20,016 nt of DNA, taken from a virus. Of the stretch, positions 529 through 15,877 are shown piece by piece. Position 1 is the first letter of the stretch. The number at the start of each line of letters is the position of its first letter. The stretch spans positions 1-20,016 of the IMG/VR virus record IMGVR_UViG_3300039412_000175; one strand, given 5' to 3'. The position numbers and the translations under genes were made by a program. Under the pieces are notes generated by a model. That model made no database searches. It was not told the origin of the DNA and worked only from the letters and a program-made list of their open reading frames with translations.

Positions 529-1221
529 ATGGAAGACCGCCGCAACGTCGTTCTGGACATCAACGAAAAAGACGAGATCGTCCACATCCGCCGCAACCGC
601 GCCGAGCCGCTGGCCCGGCTCGACCGCGAGAAGAAAACCCTCTACTGGAAGGATCAGGACTTCTGGGAGAAGTTCCACAAGTCGGTCGAGGGCTTCCTTG
701 AGGCCGAGAAAGTCACCATCGACACCGTGCTCATGGAGGGCCAGAGCCCCGACGTGGTGCCGAAGAATGCCCCGGCCTGCCCCGAGATTCACTTCTTGCA
801 GGGCGACTGCACGCCCGCCTTTGTCGAGTGGCTGCTCAAGTACAAGCCCATCGACTTCCAGAACCGCTTCGGCGTGTACTTGGTTCCGCTGGAGGATGGC
901 GCGGAGGAGCCCAAGGACCCGCGTGACCGCTGGCTGCGCGCCGATGTCATCCGCACCGACTCACGGGCGGTCGAGGGCACGCACGGAGGCGAGTACCGCT
1001 CGACGCGCTTCAAGATGAAGTCGCAGGTCATCGCCCGCCGGGCCACCCACATCACCTTCACGAAGAAGGAAATCTTCAAGGGCGACAAGGCCACCGATCA
1101 GGTCATCCCCTATGACGACCCGTACAAGCCGGAGAAGCTGGCGGCGATGGAGAAGCGGGGGGAGATCGAGGTGGTCTATCGCGGCAAGCACGCGGCAGGC
1201 AGCGCGGGCGCGAACTTCTAG
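529..1221 (+). CDS. hypothetical phage protein (230 aa)
   Basis: I do not recognise this family. The frame can be extended back to a TTG at 457, but that would overlap most of the 74-aa gene; the ATG at 529 follows that gene's stop by five bases and is the better start (MEDRRNVVLDIN). The protein is soluble, strongly charged and lysine/aspartate-rich, without signal peptide or membrane segment. Recognisable stretches are an early DREKKTLYWKDQDFWEKFHKS, a central FVEWLLKYKPIDFQNRFGVY and a basic C-terminal half with KMKSQVIARR and TFTKKEIFKGDKATDQ, ending in a flexible Gly/Ala tail. It is well supported by position, length and consistent codon use. Lying between a Bbp19-like gene and the fibre gene, it is probably a head, connector or assembly protein, but that is inference from neighbours only. 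Confidence 0.7.
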   Translation: MEDRRNVVLDINEKDEIVHIRRNRAEPLARLDREKKTLYWKDQDFWEKFHKSVEGFLEAEKVTIDTVLMEGQSPDVVPKNAPACPEIHFLQGDCTPAFVEWLLKYKPIDFQNRFGVYLVPLEDGAEEPKDPRDRWLRADVIRTDSRAVEGTHGGEYRSTRFKMKSQVIARRATHITFTKKEIFKGDKATDQVIPYDDPYKPEKLAAMEKRGEIEVVYRGKHAAGSAGANF

Positions 1222-1224
1222 GCC

Positions 1225-2778
1225 ATGCGCAAGGTCGCGTCATCGGGCACGGGTGCGAACGTCCGCAGCCAGGCGGTGGTGCAGCCATCGCAGGCGGCGG
1301 CAGGCGTCTCGCAGATTGTGGCCGGGACGAACATCACGATCAGCCCCCAGCCGGGCACCGGCATCGTCAAGATCAACGCGGCGGGCGGGGGCACCGGCAA
1401 CGTCAGTGGTCCGGGCAGTTCCACCTCGGGCGACTTTGCCTCGTTTGCCGACACGACCGGAAAGGTGCTGGCCGACAGCGGCAAAAGTTCCTCCTCTTTT
1501 CTGGGCGCCACGGCGGCAGCGGGCGGAGGTCTGGGGGGAAATTATCCCAATCCTTCGGTGACTCCGGCGGCGGGGCTTGACACCACGGCCATCCATTCCG
1601 GGGCTGGTGCGGGCGGCGATCTCACGGGAACTTATCCCAGTCCAACTCTCAAGAACACCGGCCCCGGTGCCACTGGACCCATCGGTGACTCGACCCATGT
1701 GGCTCAGGTCACGATTGACGCGCAGGGACGCGTGACGGCGCTCGCCTCCGTGGGAATTTCCGCAGCGGCAGCCCCCTTCATCAACGTCGCCAGCTACGCG
1801 AACCTCAATGCCGCCATCGCTGCGCTGAACGCGGCGGGCGGGGGCACGCTCTATTTCCCGGCGGGAACGTACAACGTCACGGGAACTCCCACAGTCATCA
1901 CCGTGCCCTGCACAATTCTGGGCGACGGCTTTGACTGCACCAAGATTGTTCAGCAGACCAACACCGCCGACTGCCTCGACATCAACACATCCTACGCGGT
2001 CAACATTATTGGCATTACCTTCAACGGGGCAGGCGGAGGCACGACCAGCGGCAACTGTGTCCATCTATATAGCGCCGGGTATTTCAACGCCGGATCGGTC
2101 ATCCGCGAGTGCAAGTTCATCGGTGCGGCCATCGGGATCAATGCTAGCGCATCGGGCATCACCATTAGGGATAATGCGTTTGGCTGCACCACTAGTATCC
2201 GAGCCGACAACACCTACAACCTTGACCAAGGATTTGGACTCATCCAAGGCAACAAATTCACGCCGACAACCGCCGCTGTGCTGGTTATTGCGGACGGAGT
2301 GCTGATTGCCGACAACGACATGGTGGGCGGCTCCTACGGCATCGAGGTGGTCACACCCAACACCGCCACGCTCGTTGACCTGCTGGTTTCAGGCAACCAT
2401 ATCGAGAACCAGTCCGTTGCGGGCATCAGCCTTCAGGGACCCTCTGGTTCGGGAAGCTGGTCGAATGTCACGATTGCCGGCAATGAAATCTCCGCTTCGT
2501 CGGACACGCAGATAGACGTGTCCGCCTCCGCTTATGGCGCATGGCTGCATGTGGTGGCAATCACCGGCAATGTGTTTCAGGATTTCGGCAACTACGGCAT
2601 CAACCTTTACCGGAGCACGCTGGTTTCCATCACGGGGAACGTGTTCTCGACCGGTAACGGCACCGGCACGGCGGTCTATGTGGATTCATCCTGTGCCAAC
2701 GGCACCTGCGGCTCGACCAACCTTTACTACGGCGGCCTGCATGGCCTCGTCAACAACGGCGGCTTCGTCACGACCTGA
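1225..2778 (+). CDS. tail fibre / tailspike with right-handed beta-helix domain
   Basis: A 517-residue receptor-binding protein candidate starting three bases after the previous stop. The N-terminal third is low-complexity and Gly/Ser/Thr-rich and carries two copies of a fibre repeat (GG-x-L-x-G-x-YP-x-P) at about residues 101-110 and 130-140; the second runs into TGPIGDSTHVAQVTIDAQGR, wording typical of phage tail fibres. From about residue 185 a pectate-lyase-superfamily domain begins, with the diagnostic AAGGGTLYFPAGTYNVTG, followed by many short turns ending in G-N-x-F/I/V (GNKF, DNDM, GNHI, GNEI, GNVF), the rungs of a parallel beta-helix. Such domains bind or cleave capsule or O-antigen; no catalytic residues can be named from sequence alone. 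It lacks an obvious T7 gp17-type N-terminal anchor. Its place upstream of the scaffold rather than after the tail genes is unusual. The DNA near 1980-2330 looks AT-richer than the flanks. Confidence 0.8.
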   Translation: MRKVASSGTGANVRSQAVVQPSQAAAGVSQIVAGTNITISPQPGTGIVKINAAGGGTGNVSGPGSSTSGDFASFADTTGKVLADSGKSSSSFLGATAAAGGGLGGNYPNPSVTPAAGLDTTAIHSGAGAGGDLTGTYPSPTLKNTGPGATGPIGDSTHVAQVTIDAQGRVTALASVGISAAAAPFINVASYANLNAAIAALNAAGGGTLYFPAGTYNVTGTPTVITVPCTILGDGFDCTKIVQQTNTADCLDINTSYAVNIIGITFNGAGGGTTSGNCVHLYSAGYFNAGSVIRECKFIGAAIGINASASGITIRDNAFGCTTSIRADNTYNLDQGFGLIQGNKFTPTTAAVLVIADGVLIADNDMVGGSYGIEVVTPNTATLVDLLVSGNHIENQSVAGISLQGPSGSGSWSNVTIAGNEISASSDTQIDVSASAYGAWLHVVAITGNVFQDFGNYGINLYRSTLVSITGNVFSTGNGTGTAVYVDSSCANGTCGSTNLYYGGLHGLVNNGGFVTT

Positions 2779-2954
2779 TGCAGAGGCCCCCCTTCCAGCT
2801 TTTCAGCAAGACCACCCGCTTTGCGGATGGCCGAATCCAGATCGAAAACTTCGCTCCCAAACCCCCAACCATTCCACCCGATGCCCGACCCCACCAGCCC
2901 GTCACCCGACCCCAACCTCACCGCCCAAGCCCCGGACCCCAACGCGGCACCTAG
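2778..2954 (+). CDS. possible small overlapping ORF (58 aa)
   Basis: An ATG overlaps the fibre stop (TGATG), the coupling used elsewhere in this operon, and opens a 58-codon frame ending with TAG at 2952. The first half, MQRPPFQLFSKTTRFADGR then IQIENFAP, is of ordinary composition. The second half is proline/arginine/histidine-rich and is the out-of-frame shadow of the scaffold N-terminus from 2881. If real it accounts for most of the otherwise empty 102 bases between fibre and scaffold and would be a short coupled protein overlapping the scaffold start. It could equally be chance. I know no homologue. Confidence 0.3.
   Translation: MQRPPFQLFSKTTRFADGRIQIENFAPKPPTIPPDARPHQPVTRPQPHRPSPGPQRGT
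2859..2875 (+). repeat. C-rich pre-start element (scaffold gene)
   Basis: The 17 bases AAACCCCCAACCATTCC here match 11635-11651 at 16 of 17 positions. The first part (AACCCCCAACC) is also shared with the 17-bp repeats at 276 and 507. This copy ends five bases before the preferred scaffold ATG at 2881, repeating the arrangement seen before the starts at 299 and 529. Confidence 0.6.
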
Positions 2955-3849
2955 CGGCGGCGCACCCGCCCCGACCGAGCATTGGGAGAAGGGCTGGGTC
3001 AAGGAGGACGGCACCTTCGACCACACCCGCCTCGACAAGGCCCCCGACGACATCAAGGCGCTGGCCAAGGAACTGTCCGTCTATAAGACGCCCGGCGACT
3101 TCATCAAGAGTTTCAAGGAGAAGGCGAGCTTCGCCTCCAAGAAGGGCATCGTCGAGCCGCTGCCCGCCAATGCCACGCCCGAGATGGTGGCGGAGAGGCA
3201 GGCGCTCTTGCGCAGGGTGAACGGTGCCCCTGAGAAGCCCGAGGGCTACGGCCTCAAGCGACCCGACGACATTCCCGAGGGGCAGTGGAGTCAGGAGTTT
3301 GCCGACGCGGCGGCGAAGCTGGCCTTTGAAAACGGCCTGTCCCCGCAGGCATTGCAGGGCTTGGCCAAGCTCCAGATCGACATGGCGAAGAAGGCCGGGG
3401 CGGCGCAGCAGCAGGCCGAGGTGGAATTTCTCGCCAAGCAGGACCAGCTCATCCGCGAGCACATCCAGAAGGAACTCGGCGTCAGCTACGAGAAGGCGCA
3501 GGACTTGGCGCAGCGGGCCGGGCGGCGCTGGGGCGTCGATGCCAAGAGCATGTACATGAAGGACGCCACGATTTTCATGATGCTGGCCCGGCTGGGCGGC
3601 CTAATGAGCGAGTCGAAGCTCGTGACGGGCGACATGGGCAACATCGCCTTGGCGGGCAACCTTTCACCCGCGCAGGCGGAGGCGGCGGCAGTGGACATCC
3701 AGTCCAACAAGAACAACCCCGACTGGGCGGCCTACTGGAACCAGGGAACGATTTCGGCGGAGGCACACGAGGCGGCGGTGGAGAAGGTCAACAGCCTGCG
3801 GAGGATGGCGCACGCCAACCGGGCGCAGCGTGAGCAACGGGGGGTCTAA
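2881..3849 (+). CDS. capsid assembly scaffolding protein
   Basis: Preferred start is the ATG at 2881, giving 322 residues; upstream in-frame starts at 2821 (TTG) and 2827 (ATG) would add about 18-20 residues of unlikely composition. The protein is as expected for podovirus scaffolds: a disordered N-terminus rich in Pro/Asp/Ala, HWEKGWVKEDGTFD with TRLDKAPDDIKALAKEL, a VYKTPGDFIKSFKEK motif, a central KPEGYGLKRPDDIPEG segment (the PE-x-Y-x-L-x-x-P pattern common in T7 gp9-type and related scaffolds), then long charged helices and a basic C-terminus (LRRMAHANRAQREQR) suited to binding capsid protein inside the procapsid. It acts in the cytoplasm with the major capsid protein at 10071 and is normally lost from the mature head. 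Unusually, about 6.2 kb separate it from that capsid gene. Confidence 0.8.
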   Translation: MPDPTSPSPDPNLTAQAPDPNAAPSGGAPAPTEHWEKGWVKEDGTFDHTRLDKAPDDIKALAKELSVYKTPGDFIKSFKEKASFASKKGIVEPLPANATPEMVAERQALLRRVNGAPEKPEGYGLKRPDDIPEGQWSQEFADAAAKLAFENGLSPQALQGLAKLQIDMAKKAGAAQQQAEVEFLAKQDQLIREHIQKELGVSYEKAQDLAQRAGRRWGVDAKSMYMKDATIFMMLARLGGLMSESKLVTGDMGNIALAGNLSPAQAEAAAVDIQSNKNNPDWAAYWNQGTISAEAHEAAVEKVNSLRRMAHANRAQREQRGV

Positions 3850-11000: not shown

Positions 11001-11636
11001 ATGGCTACACCTATTACACGTTACGCGCAGATCGCGTTTGAGCAGATTCCCTTCGCCAACTATCCCGGCGGCGGCCCGATTGCACAGGGCACCACCCCGT
11101 TCGGGAATGTCGGCTTCAACGATCCGGGTCTGGAGATCGGCAATGTCCGCGAGGTCACGGCCATCTACCAGATGTACGGCAATGAGGCTTCCTCGGACAT
11201 CATCAACCTCTATCTGGCGCAGCCGGGCACGATGGTCAGTCCGGTGGGCACGGTGTCCGGCAGCGGTGCTTCCGGTGGCAATCCCACCGTGAGCGGCGTG
11301 GCCGCCACCCTGGTCCTGTCAGTCGGTGACGATGATGTCACGGGCTCCGGCCTCGTGTCGAATCCTACCCAGAACCCGGCGGTCACGGACGGGGCCTCCC
11401 CCGTTCGTTATTCGGCCCCCATCACCGTCTCCACGGGCGTGACCAATCCGGTCAGCTTCGCGGGCGGCACGGCCCAGATCAATCCCTACCAGATTGGTGC
11501 CACGGCGGTGGAGCCGCAGGGCGCCAATCCGCTGACTGGCGTGGGCGGCTCTTGGATTCAGGCTTACCTCAACAAGGTCGCCACCCCGACGGCGGGCGCG
11601 GCACTCGTGTTCCGGCTCAAGATCATCAAGCCCTAA
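11001..11636 (+). CDS. probable head decoration or head-fibre protein
   Basis: A 211-residue protein directly after the capsid gene with its own strong Shine-Dalgarno site, so probably made in high amount. The N-terminal 75 residues are globular-looking (RYAQIAFEQIPFANYPGGG, FNDPGLEIGNVREVTAIYQMYG). The remainder is strongly Gly/Ser/Thr/Val/Pro-rich with alternating beta pattern (SPVGTVSGSGASGGNPTVSG, YSAPITVSTGVTNPV), ending in the strand VFRLKIIKP. No cysteine, signal peptide or membrane helix is seen. Proteins in this place in related phages are often decoration or head-stabilising proteins; I do not recognise the family, so this is from position and composition. Its many exposed Ser/Thr residues make it a plausible glycan acceptor for the cassette at 4451-9889, which is speculation. 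Confidence 0.6.
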   Translation: MATPITRYAQIAFEQIPFANYPGGGPIAQGTTPFGNVGFNDPGLEIGNVREVTAIYQMYGNEASSDIINLYLAQPGTMVSPVGTVSGSGASGGNPTVSGVAATLVLSVGDDDVTGSGLVSNPTQNPAVTDGASPVRYSAPITVSTGVTNPVSFAGGTAQINPYQIGATAVEPQGANPLTGVGGSWIQAYLNKVATPTAGAALVFRLKIIKP

Positions 11637-11724: not shown

Positions 11725-12570
11725 ATGCAGCTTCTCTCCGTCACCGACATTTGCAACCTCGCCCTGCTGCGCCTCGGGCAGCGCAAGATCGCCGCCATCA
11801 CCGACCAGACGGACGGCAACGCCATCGCCTGCAATGTCGGGTACGGGCAGGCCCTTGGCGAGGTCTCGCGGGCGCAGCCGTGGAGCTGCCTGAAGAAGCG
11901 GGCCTTCTTGGGCCAGCTGCCGGCGAACCTGACCGCCTCGCCCGCCATCTACCCGCCCGTCCCCTCGACCGCCACCACGTGGGTGCCGGGGACGGCCTAC
12001 GCGGTCAACGCCTACGTCATCTACGCGGGATACCTTTACCAGTGCCTCATCGCCAACACGGCCAGCACGAGCTTTGCCTACGACCTGACGCGGGGGTGCT
12101 GGTTCCAAACTGACACCTATTCGCCCAACTACCTTGGGCCGCCGCAGGGCAATGCCGGCTCGCTCTACGAGTGGACCTACGGCTACGAGCTGCCGGGCGA
12201 TTTCGTCCTGCTCGTGGAACTCAACGGGGTCTGCCAGTGGGGCAGCCACGTTGGGCGCACCTGCGAAATCTACCAGAAGGGGCTCTACACGAACGCGGCC
12301 TCCGCCAACATCAAGTACAGCCGGTGGGAGCCGGACCCGACGAACTACGACCCGCTTTTCACCGGGGCCTTGGTCCTCAACCTCGCCTGCATCATCGCCA
12401 CGTCCCTGCGCAAGGACGACGCCCGGCTTTCCCTCACGCTCCGTCAGGAGTACAAGGATTACTTGTGTGAAGCGCGGCAAAAAGACGGGGCGGAGATCAA
12501 GCCGCGCCGTTACAATCCCGTCAGCGAGTCGCGCTTCGTGCGCTCGCGCTGGAACTCGACCAACGGCTGA
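11725..12570 (+). CDS. tail tubular protein A-like (T7 gp11-like adaptor) with carbohydrate-binding insert
   Basis: The 281-residue product begins VTDICNLALLRLGQRKIAAI and continues with QALGEVSRAQPWSCLKKRA, the two helices typical of gp11/gp4-like head-tail adaptors that bind the portal. The C-terminal half has YEWTYGYELPGDFVLLVELNG, the usual Y-x-Y-x-L-P pattern, then ALVLNLACIIATSLRKDD and an EYKDYLCEARQKDG helix with a basic end. Between these, residues 86-126 form an inserted module: W-V-P-G-T-A-Y, VIYAGYLYQCLIANT and a closing GCWF. This is the pattern of CBM5/12-type (chitin-binding-like) repeats. Similar modules occur three times in the next gene. The usual proteins are near 200 residues; the insert and its linkers account for much of the excess. 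Coupled by TGATG to the next gene. Confidence 0.8.
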   Translation: MQLLSVTDICNLALLRLGQRKIAAITDQTDGNAIACNVGYGQALGEVSRAQPWSCLKKRAFLGQLPANLTASPAIYPPVPSTATTWVPGTAYAVNAYVIYAGYLYQCLIANTASTSFAYDLTRGCWFQTDTYSPNYLGPPQGNAGSLYEWTYGYELPGDFVLLVELNGVCQWGSHVGRTCEIYQKGLYTNAASANIKYSRWEPDPTNYDPLFTGALVLNLACIIATSLRKDDARLSLTLRQEYKDYLCEARQKDGAEIKPRRYNPVSESRFVRSRWNSTNG

Positions 12571-15464
12571 TGCCTCACTCCCTCCAGCCCCTCGTCTGCT
12601 TCAACTCGGGCGAGCTGTCTCCCACCCTTGACAGCCGCCTCGACCTGCCTGCCTACCGCAAGGGCTGCCGCCTGCTGCGCAACATGATCCCGCTGAAGAC
12701 CGGCGGCGCCACCCGCCGGCCCGGCACGCAATGGATCGCCCTCGGCAAGCAGAACATCACCGGCCTGCCCTCCGTCTCGCGGCTCCAGAAGTTCCAGTAC
12801 GCGCCCGGCACGACCTTCATGCTGGAGTTTTGCGACAAGGGCATCCGCTTCTACTCGAACGGGGCGCAGGTGCAGGTCACGACCGCCCCCGACTGGGTGA
12901 CGGGCACCTCCTACCCGGCGGGCGCCTTCGTGCGCTACCCGGCGGTGACGGGCGGCATCTACTACCTCTACAACGGGCCGCTCGTCAACTCGACCAGTTC
13001 GCCCAACACCGACACCACACACTGGACGGGGGGCGCCTCTAGCCTGCCCTACGAGGTGCCCTCGCCCTACCTGGCCACCAACTTCACCCCGCCCAACTAC
13101 TGGACCTCGGACGTGTTCACGCTCGCGTGCTGCCAGATCAACGACGTGGTGTACATCGTCCACCCGAGCTATCCCGTTTACAAGCTCATCAGCTATTCCA
13201 ACACGAACTGGGTCATGCAGGCGGTGCAGTTCATGACGCCGGCCCTGCTCGACCAGAACGCGACGGACACGACCCTCACGGCCTCGGCGCTCACGGGCGC
13301 GATCACCCTCACGGCCTCGGCTGCCGCGTGGGTCACGGCCACCTACTACACGCCGGGTAACAGCGTCACCTCGGGCGGCCTCATCTACAACTGCGTGCAG
13401 GTGCATGTCAGCGGCACCTTCGCCGCCGACCTCGCCAAGGGCCTGTGGACCCTCGTGACAATTTTTCAGGAGGGCCACAAGGGCTCCTACTGGCAGCTCG
13501 CCTACAACCGCCCCGCCTCCTTCATCGAGTTCGACGCCACGCCCTCGGTCGGCAACTACACCTTCGCGGGCGGCTCGTGGTACAACTCGGTTTCCACCCT
13601 CTTCATCATCGGCACGTGGGAGTTCATCACCTATGGCACATGGCAGGGGGACGTGTCGGTGCAGGCCAGCTATGACAACGGCGTGACGTGGCAGGTCATC
13701 ACCACCGTCTCCAGCCGGGCGGATGCCAACTTCAATGTTTCGGGGCAGGACATCGTGGGCGGCCTCTACCGCCTCGTGGTGACGAACGCCGTCGCCACGG
13801 CCTCGGCCTCGGTGCCGCGCCTCAGCCTCACCGCCGACAACCAGTTCGTGTACGGGCTCGTGCAGATCACCGAGCTTTGGGCGGCGTGGGTGTCGGGCAA
13901 TTCCTACGTGGTGGGCAATGTCGTCAACTACGGGGCGCACAGCTACACGTGCCTCGTGAACACCTCGGGCACCACCATCCCGCCCAGCGACCCGGTGCAT
14001 TGGATGCTGGGCAGCCCCTACATCCAGACCGCCCAAGTCATCACCCCGCTTTATGCGACTTCCGCCACGATCTACTGGTCCGAGGGCGCGTGGTCGGACG
14101 TGCGCGGCTACCCGCAGGCGGCTGCGGTCTTCCAGGAACGGCTCTGGTACGGCGGCACCACCGCCCAGCCGCAGCGGGTGTGGGGCACGCAGACGGACGA
14201 CATCGAGAACTTCGCCCTCCTCGACCAGTCCCAAGCCACCTACGGACTGGCCTTCGATCTCAATGCGCCGGGACGCGGCCCCATCCAGTGGCTCGCCGCG
14301 CAGACCGACCTCATGATCGGGCTGGCGGGGGCGGAATGGATCATGAACAGCGGGACCGGCACCAACACGGCCATCACGCCCTCTGCCGTGCTGGCGATGG
14401 AGCACTCCGCCAACGGCTCCGCCCCCAGCCTGCCGGGGCTCATCATCAGCAATGCCGCCTTCTACGTCACCCGCAAGGGCACGCGCTTCCAGCAGATGCT
14501 TTTCAGCGTGTTCACCAACAAGTACATGTCGCAGGACATGCAGGTCCTCTCCCAGCATCTCACGGCGGCGCGGGTCAAGCAGTTCGACTTCCAGCAGGAG
14601 TTTCAGAACCACTCGCTGCTGTGGGCGGTGTGCGGCGACGGCTCGCTCATCTCCATGACCTACGCGATGGAGCAGGAGGTGTTCGGGTGGGCCAAGCACC
14701 TGACCGGTCAGGACCGGGGGGACCTGTTCCTGTCGGCGCAGGTCATCTACGGCTCGGAGGGCAATGACGACGAGGTGTGGGTGAGCGTGCTGCGCCAGCC
14801 GGGCAGCAGCTTTCTATGCCAGATTGAGCGGCTTTGGCCGGTGGACTGGCAGACCGCCAACGAGGGCCTGCCCGATCTCACGCAGGCGTTCTACGCCGAC
14901 TGGGGACTGCGCTTGGTGCAGGGCACGGACATCAGCCCCGCCAGCGCCACCTTTGGGGCGGGATTTGCGGGCCTGACAGGGCGCCAGCTTGTGGTTTCGA
15001 TCAATGGCCGGGTGGCCGCCAGCGGCCTCGTGGGCTCGACCCTTCCCCCTTACGGGGTGGTGACGGTGCCCAACTACGTGCCGGTGGCGGGCGATGTCAT
15101 CGTGGTGGGCCTGCCGATCAACTGGTACGTGCAGCCCATGCGCCTCGACTTGGACGCCCGCGCCAGACCCATCCCGGCAGTCAACAAGTCGATTGCGAAG
15201 CTCTACCCCCGACTGCTCAACTCCATCGGCGGCAACTGGGCCACGCGGCAGAACGACATCATTCCGCTCCCGACCTATCAAGCCACCGCCGTCCCCGGCC
15301 AGCCCCCGCCCTTCATGCCCAACGTGCCGCAGGAGGTGGAGGTCGATTGCGGTTCCTTCATGCAGAACGAGGTGGACCCGCAGTTCATCTTGCAGGGCTC
15401 CGACCCTTTGCCCTTTACGGTCTTGGGCATAACTGTTAAGTACGACATTTCCGGCTCCGCATGA
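12570..15464 (+). CDS. tail tubular protein B-like / tail hub protein with three carbohydrate-binding repeats
   Basis: A 964-residue tail tube protein. The N-terminus shows the family start: CFNSGELSPTLDSRLDLPAY, KGCRLLRNMIPLKTGGATRRPGTQW and then FQYAPGTTFMLEF. Mid and late landmarks include NDVVYIVHPSYPVYKLI, FQERLWYGGTTAQPQRVWGTQ, FDLNAPGRGPIQWLAAQTDL, ISNAAFYVTRKGTRFQQM and FDFQQEFQNHSLLWAVCGDGSL, as in the gp12-like/nozzle proteins of short-tailed phages. Three inserts at about residues 109-152, 254-293 and 440-478 share the pattern W-V-x-G/A-x-x-Y ... G-x-x-V ... Y-x-C/Y ... W of CBM5/12-like modules, matching the one in tail tubular A. The protein assembles below the adaptor at the tail tip. 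It is somewhat longer than T7 gp12 (about 790), consistent with the extra modules. A long antisense ORF across it is a composition artefact. Confidence 0.8.
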   Translation: MPHSLQPLVCFNSGELSPTLDSRLDLPAYRKGCRLLRNMIPLKTGGATRRPGTQWIALGKQNITGLPSVSRLQKFQYAPGTTFMLEFCDKGIRFYSNGAQVQVTTAPDWVTGTSYPAGAFVRYPAVTGGIYYLYNGPLVNSTSSPNTDTTHWTGGASSLPYEVPSPYLATNFTPPNYWTSDVFTLACCQINDVVYIVHPSYPVYKLISYSNTNWVMQAVQFMTPALLDQNATDTTLTASALTGAITLTASAAAWVTATYYTPGNSVTSGGLIYNCVQVHVSGTFAADLAKGLWTLVTIFQEGHKGSYWQLAYNRPASFIEFDATPSVGNYTFAGGSWYNSVSTLFIIGTWEFITYGTWQGDVSVQASYDNGVTWQVITTVSSRADANFNVSGQDIVGGLYRLVVTNAVATASASVPRLSLTADNQFVYGLVQITELWAAWVSGNSYVVGNVVNYGAHSYTCLVNTSGTTIPPSDPVHWMLGSPYIQTAQVITPLYATSATIYWSEGAWSDVRGYPQAAAVFQERLWYGGTTAQPQRVWGTQTDDIENFALLDQSQATYGLAFDLNAPGRGPIQWLAAQTDLMIGLAGAEWIMNSGTGTNTAITPSAVLAMEHSANGSAPSLPGLIISNAAFYVTRKGTRFQQMLFSVFTNKYMSQDMQVLSQHLTAARVKQFDFQQEFQNHSLLWAVCGDGSLISMTYAMEQEVFGWAKHLTGQDRGDLFLSAQVIYGSEGNDDEVWVSVLRQPGSSFLCQIERLWPVDWQTANEGLPDLTQAFYADWGLRLVQGTDISPASATFGAGFAGLTGRQLVVSINGRVAASGLVGSTLPPYGVVTVPNYVPVAGDVIVVGLPINWYVQPMRLDLDARARPIPAVNKSIAKLYPRLLNSIGGNWATRQNDIIPLPTYQATAVPGQPPPFMPNVPQEVEVDCGSFMQNEVDPQFILQGSDPLPFTVLGITVKYDISGSA

Positions 15465-15877
15465 AAATCCGCGCCCTCGACCTTGAAAAGGAGTACGACG
15501 CCTTCGCCGCATGGTGGACGAAGCGGGAGCTGACGCCGCCCTCGAAGATCATCTTGCAGGGGGCGACCGGCTTCGCCGTCAAGGCGGGCGAGGTGGACGT
15601 GACCGCCGGCTGGCTCTACGTCGCCAACAAGGGCGTCATTGGCATCGTGGAGTGGATGGTCGTGAACCCATCCGTTGTTGACTTGGTGGCGATCAGCGCC
15701 TCGGTCAACCTGCTCTATGACTTTCTGGAGAAGTTCGCCCGCGAGGCGGGCTGCTCCGTGCTGTTCACCTCCACGCAGCTCGACGGCTCCATCCGCCGGT
15801 TCCTGCAAAAGCGCGACTGGACCCTCTGCGAGGGCAAGCCGCATGTGCATTTGCTGAAGGTCTTGCAAAAGGAGTAA
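15461..15877 (+). CDS. GNAT-like N-acetyltransferase family protein
   Basis: A 138-residue protein with the ATGA coupling. The layout resembles a short GNAT fold: LDLEKEYDAFAAWWTKREL as first strand and helix, ATGFAVKAGEVDVTAGWLYVANKGVIGIVEWMVVNP as the beta sheet, then a helix LLYDFLEKFAREAGCSVLF and a final QKRDWTLCEGKPHVHLLKVL. The standard acetyl-CoA loop (Q/R-x-x-G-x-G/A) cannot be seen clearly, so binding of the cofactor may be lost. Proteins of this kind occur between tail tubular B and the ejection proteins in many podoviruses, where the fold may have a structural role in the virion. I favour that reading over a free acetyltransferase, but cannot prove it. Confidence 0.6.
   Translation: MKIRALDLEKEYDAFAAWWTKRELTPPSKIILQGATGFAVKAGEVDVTAGWLYVANKGVIGIVEWMVVNPSVVDLVAISASVNLLYDFLEKFAREAGCSVLFTSTQLDGSIRRFLQKRDWTLCEGKPHVHLLKVLQKE

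Follow-up and report, generated by a model that had tools for sequence, protein, structure and literature searches.

CBM5/12-like modules inserted in the tail adaptor and nozzle proteins of an environmental podovirus and in other predicted virion proteins of its relatives

The window analysed here, a 20,016 nt stretch of an environmental short-tailed phage (IMG/VR record IMGVR_UViG_3300039412_000175), contains a podovirus structural-gene block in which tail tubular protein A (TTA, the adaptor; 11725..12570, + strand, 281 amino acids) carries one copy, and tail tubular protein B (TTB, the nozzle; 12570..15464, + strand, 964 amino acids) three copies, of a small module related to carbohydrate-binding module (CBM) family CBM5/12. 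The four modules are best explained as members of a CBM5/12-fold branch carried by phages, each a separate beta unit of 40–46 residues inserted in frame in a loop of the adaptor or nozzle. Sequence matches among related phages place the module in at least four predicted virion proteins, namely the adaptor, the nozzle, a small virion protein and tailspikes.

An earlier note on this DNA had put the modules at TTA residues 86–126 (nt 11980–12102) and TTB residues 109–152, 254–293 and 440–478 (within nt 12570–14003); these positions are correct and the modules real, and their boundaries needed slight improvement. All on the + strand, the TTA module spans residues 84–126 (11974..12102) and TTB modules 1, 2 and 3 span residues 107–152 (12888..13025), 252–293 (13323..13448) and 438–478 (13881..14003), respectively. 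The Pfam family CBM_5_12 (PF02839, cutoff 26.2 bits) is matched by TTA at 30 bits and by TTB at a whole-protein total of 31.8 bits over two stretches, so that at the curated cutoff both proteins are assigned to the family by sequence. A genome-wide scan with PF02839 recovers three of the four modules (32.2, 24.5 and 20 bits), TTB modules 2 (20 bits) and 3 (24.5 bits) lying singly under the cutoff; TTB module 1 has no Pfam match in the window itself but is picked up by a profile built without site-1 and window modules. Such leave-one-site-out profiles, from which a module's own site (for TTA, all TTA modules) and every window module were excluded, gave 42.7 bits for the TTA module and 16.7, 30.6 and 43.5 bits for TTB sites 1, 2 and 3. 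The maximum among 1000 shuffled proteins was 7.8 bits, and across 842 kb, made up of the window and 24 related records, every reversed open reading frame decoy stayed below 10 bits, so the modules stand far above chance.

The CBM5/12-like identity proposed earlier is also borne out by solved structures, among which the closest to the module profile is the chitin-binding domain of ChiA1 (1ed7), aligned over its full length with an E value of 1.3e-7; a phmmer search of solved structures with a single module, unlike the profile search, gave no match. The modules and the ChiA1 domain have in common their length and a W...Y..G..V...G..Y.C...W frame. They differ in that the phage proteins contain no chitinase, that Trp687 of ChiA1 is replaced by Phe or absent, and that the modules lie inside structural proteins and not at the end of an enzyme. 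A small beta fold, which the earlier note expected, is predicted confidently at TTB sites 1 and 2 (pLDDT 86–96 over the two), as four short strands at site 1 (pLDDT 86–94) and as a strand pair, a short helix and a closing strand at site 2 (pLDDT about 95); at site 3 the model has only a low-confidence beta hairpin (pLDDT 36–41). These predictions come from a TTB model built from 62 relatives (mean pLDDT 86.5), an 8-sequence model with a pLDDT of 46.7 having been discarded. A fold search with the whole nozzle returned only nozzles and propellers, 1ed7 not among them, and is uninformative on the modules themselves.

TTB is a podovirus nozzle by both homology (phrog_376, E 8.1e-120) and fold, its top solved relatives being the podovirus nozzles of Carin 1 (8ck1_A, Z 40.2 over 653 residues), LME-1 (Z 36.6) and T7 (gp12, Z about 26). 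The word "hub" that had been applied to it is therefore inaccurate, since the protein is the hexameric nozzle of the podovirus tail. TTA is assigned to the adaptor family by its homology to tail proteins (phrog_394, E 8.3e-29) and its position beside the nozzle gene, and it shows a weak likeness to the connector protein of 8ck1. The two proteins share their backbones with those of Carin 1 and with T7 gp12 and gp11, but in the profile alignment the solved Carin 1 nozzle runs across sites 1 and 3 with no room for a module.

Close relatives of the window (51–84% identity) have the TTA module and TTB sites 1 and 2 filled. Site 3 is filled only in the window and in the nearest of these relatives (L004), and is empty at a clean joint in the six others, which read Q-I-T-A-V ... 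against Q-I-T-E-L-W-A-A-W ... H-W-M-L-G at the filled site; module 3 is thus a lineage-specific gain. In a more distant relative (L018) TTB has only the site 2 module, module 1 being absent as it is from Carin 1, and TTA has none. Overall, 39 of 74 non-redundant TTBs bear one to six modules and 35 bear none, and one or two are present in 30 of 72 TTAs and none in the other 42. The modules are consequently not a core element present in identical form in all TTA and TTB families, the outcome that the earlier note had named as refuting its reading. There are about ten insertion points in TTB, near residues 106/154, 174, 240–251, 318–326, 434–437, 499, 718, 745, 839 and 895 in window numbering; they were mapped on one alignment of module-free backbones, so their exact placement may be off by a few residues. 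The weakest module calls (about 10 bits, for example at site 6) are uncertain. On a tree of 48 TTB backbones the ten sites require at least 24 state changes, five of them at site 4 alone, a minimum count that does not separate gain from loss. Site 3 was acquired independently twice, once in the window/L004 pair and once in three members of another clade (L066, L068 and L072), and all 29 rows of the clade retain at least one nozzle module. We note that CBM modules are few or missing in four nozzles of 950–1160 amino acids (L088, L128, L092 and L139, the first with a weak E1_FCCH match), whose length must therefore come from other inserts.

The idea that the module has spread by repeated insertion is supported, and more widely than it was first put forward. 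The scan of the 842 kb gave 107 module matches, 73 in TTB, 26 in TTA, six in the small virion protein and two in tailspike-type proteins, and the L067 record adds one more, in a tailspike-type protein with a beta helix. An alignment of 23 homologues of the small virion protein from related phages shows the module as a clean insert, with I-G-D-x-D before it and R-Y-S after it, in seven of them (L190, L221, L229, L199, L233, L196 and L191). In the 12 closer records Pfam modules are confined to the TTA and TTB frames. An endolysin or other enzyme was considered as the origin of the spread and rejected; every one of the 107 matches, in records that are often fragments, falls in TTA, TTB, a tailspike or the small virion protein. 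The module branch has spread by repeated in-frame gain, at about ten nozzle positions and in the adaptor (sometimes two in a row) as well as in tailspikes and the small virion protein.

The modules fall into two C-terminal subtypes with a common first half. Subtype F, which closes with F-x-x-D-L-x-x-G-x-W, accounts for 31 of 32 TTA modules and 27 of 34 modules at TTB site 2, and includes the TTA module and TTB module 2 of the window. Subtype P closes with P-x-S-D-x-T-H-W and is found at TTB sites 1, 3, 4, 5 and 7, in the small virion protein and in tailspikes; TTB modules 1 and 3 of the window belong to it. Of 138 modules, 119 have as nearest neighbour a copy from the corresponding site of a different phage and 19 a copy from some other site, indicating that modules are mostly inherited in place and occasionally move. 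Two cases of movement look recent. The L070 nozzle contains an internal module duplicate with 71% DNA identity over 125 nt, and the L068 and L072 genes are 98–100% identical over a stretch of some 180 nt that includes the site-3 module (L068 nt 3018+1141 to 3018+1320) and 73–88% identical in the adjoining windows, a pattern that suggests module-length exchange. These features could describe a single in-frame domain lineage that behaves like a mobile element, having colonised exposed loops of the nozzle, adaptor, small protein and tailspike within one podovirus clade by module-length copying and exchange and giving each virion an adjustable number of adhesive pads, from about 12 to more than 48; taken as a whole, we regard that broad picture as somewhat doubtful.

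Wherever differences exist within the modules, dN/dS is 0.03–0.41, which in these sequences shows purifying selection. In TTA, conservation is highest in the module (mean identity 79% vs 57%, higher in 21 of 21 pairs), and TTB modules 1 and 2, at 58.9% and 59.3% identity, evolve no more slowly than the nozzle backbone at 61.8%; this contrast points to an old, fixed adaptor module distinct from more freely evolving nozzle modules. Near-neutral hitch-hiking, in which a small domain that folds well is spread by recombination and simply tolerated in exposed loops, with no selected function, would account for the many sites with gain and loss, for the lack of any slowing in TTB modules 1 and 2 and for the loss of known ligand residues (see below). 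It fits poorly with dN/dS values well below 1, with the strong conservation of the TTA module and with the presence of at least one nozzle module in every one of the 29 clade rows, and we consider it improbable.

The reading we favour, tentatively and at somewhat under even confidence, is that the modules are inserted accessory pads that give the virion weak multivalent surface binding, although the TTA copy may be a docking interface instead. The inserts are accessory, vary between relatives and occur in more than one predicted virion protein, as would be expected of domains that decorate a virion. As add-on pads they would lie on the exterior of the tail, and with a stoichiometry like that of T7 (12 adaptor and 6 nozzle subunits) the tail of the window's phage would display about 30 of them, and more than 40 would be reached in phages with five or six modules per nozzle. 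Individually weak contacts with glycans of the host surface or matrix might then sum to keep the tail near the envelope, separately from the action of the tailspike. Precedents for such a role are the virion CBMs of lactococcal 936 phages, for which GFP fusions showed attachment to host cells (PMC6669499), and the TTPA and TTPB proteins of Vibrio phage OWB, which bind a host surface protein (PMC7241545).

Several observations weigh against the accessory-pad reading, and the first group concerns the ligand. Trp687 is a chitin-binding residue of ChiA1, according to literature cited in PMC8449059, and CBM5 domains bind through a Tyr/Trp-Trp pair (PMC8449059). Trp687 aligns to columns that are lacking in the module profile, and the window modules have no Trp counterpart; at the corresponding spacing (C+9/+10) there is a Phe in 39 of 42 subtype F modules and no aromatic residue in 46 of 51 subtype P modules. 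The CBM5 pair is likewise not seen in the stretch from strand 3 to the closing W. The modules thus lack the exposed aromatic residues by which chitin binders of either family are recognised (Trp687 in CBM12, the Tyr/Trp-Trp pair in CBM5), and with a Phe in subtype F and as a rule no aromatic in subtype P, chitin binding is unproven, and unlikely for subtype P. The binding of chitin-like or peptidoglycan sugars suggested earlier is no more than a possibility, and the phage precedents of the fold are anchor domains of tailspikes. True binding of chitin or other GlcNAc polymers, by which virions would attach to peptidoglycan or to soil chitin of fungal or arthropod origin, does have in its favour that the ChiA1 domain is the closest solved homologue, that the Phe of subtype F stands at the Trp687 spacing (at C+10 in TTA, as in ChiA1), and that TTB module 2 reads C-V-Q-V-H, with a Gln two residues past the Cys like Gln679 of ChiA1, for which a role is indicated by the title of a reference in PMC8449059. 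Set against the rule that neither subtype has a Trp at the binding position, and that no window module has one, these points leave it a very small probability.

The second group of opposing observations concerns docking. The conservation of the TTA module is too high for a receptor-variable domain. The 1ED7 fold also occurs within the anchor of the CBA120 tailspike TSP1, where it forms subdomain D2 inside the head-binding region and where the authors remark that polysaccharide binding by such domains had never been reported (PMC3966878). In phage Milano, residues 28–61 of the tailspike gp124 match the module profile and lie within its tail-binding domain, whose Pro-rich motifs contact the baseplate (PMC10811340). 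The main rival to the pads is therefore that the CBM5/12 fold acts as a compact protein-protein connector whose partners are tailspikes or adjacent subunits and not sugars, with the Pro-rich part of subtype P as the contact, and we give it an appreciable, if lesser, probability. The seating of the T7 fibre between adaptor and nozzle (PMC6702177) and the loss of the chitin-binding Trp agree with such a function, but nozzle sites are gained and lost between close relatives, a needed connector would not range from one to six copies, and modules are also found in the beta-helix part of tailspikes and in the small virion protein encoded beside the major head gene. The adaptor module is older in the clade and more conserved than the rest of TTA, and its partner may therefore be a constant one, such as the anchor of a tailspike, and not a glycan that varies. 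The two roles may exist together, docking for the TTA copy and decoration for those in the nozzle.

The fold itself, the decoration of virions by CBMs and the occurrence of the fold in tailspike anchors are each already known. Accessory virion binding domains are known best from siphophages of Gram-positive hosts; those of the 936 lactococcal phages (NPS, MTP-TpeX and evolved Dit; PMC6669499) resemble the present modules in being carried on several virion proteins in varying combinations, but their cell binding was seen with GFP fusions and the window modules are known from sequence. The CBA120 TSP1 D2 and the Milano gp124 N-terminal domain (8fqc_P1) place the 1ED7 fold or a module-profile match, respectively, on a phage tail, but as fixed parts of tailspike anchors and not as repeated nozzle and adaptor inserts. 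Klebsiella phage KP32 TTPA was considered as a precedent and set aside; a 2017 paper reports lytic activity for this tail tubular protein, but its authors state that phage tail proteins lack the CBMs of glycoside hydrolases (PMC5440376). In a literature search that covered few subscription papers, no description was found of CBM5/12 inserts in nozzle and adaptor or of one module family in four virion genes. A single small domain lineage that can be traced through about ten sites of one tail protein and three other virion genes makes the rules of domain gain countable, and where a phage tail protein is labelled "carbohydrate-binding module", the label may denote a fold without its known sugar-binding residue. 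The nozzle of the cultured Caulobacter phage Jess A (MK942064; L239 2474–4648) has a site-1 module at residues 103–141 (23.7 bits); it differs from that of the window in having only this one module and is 28% identical to it, and the single module of a cultured phage makes function directly testable.

The order of genes in the window, head protein, small protein, TTA and TTB, is that of the isolates. The small virion protein (11001..11636, + strand), between the major head protein and TTA, has no module in the window; sequence comparison gave no solved relative for it, and the head-and-packaging family phrog_8455 is reached only by a distant member, so we do not call it a cement protein. The putative tailspike of the window (1225–2778, 517 amino acids), a right-handed beta helix (PF13229) with a match to the tailspike family phrog_7458, also lacks a module. 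The record L098 (PMZA01000513.1) has nozzle DNA identical to that of L004 and is binned in a fen metagenome-assembled genome of Armatimonadetes, which may be a hint of the host or a binning error. The gene 3' of the nozzle gene (15461–15877) matches phrog_17252, and genes at the same place in isolates are annotated as "putative acetyltransferase" or DUF2833.

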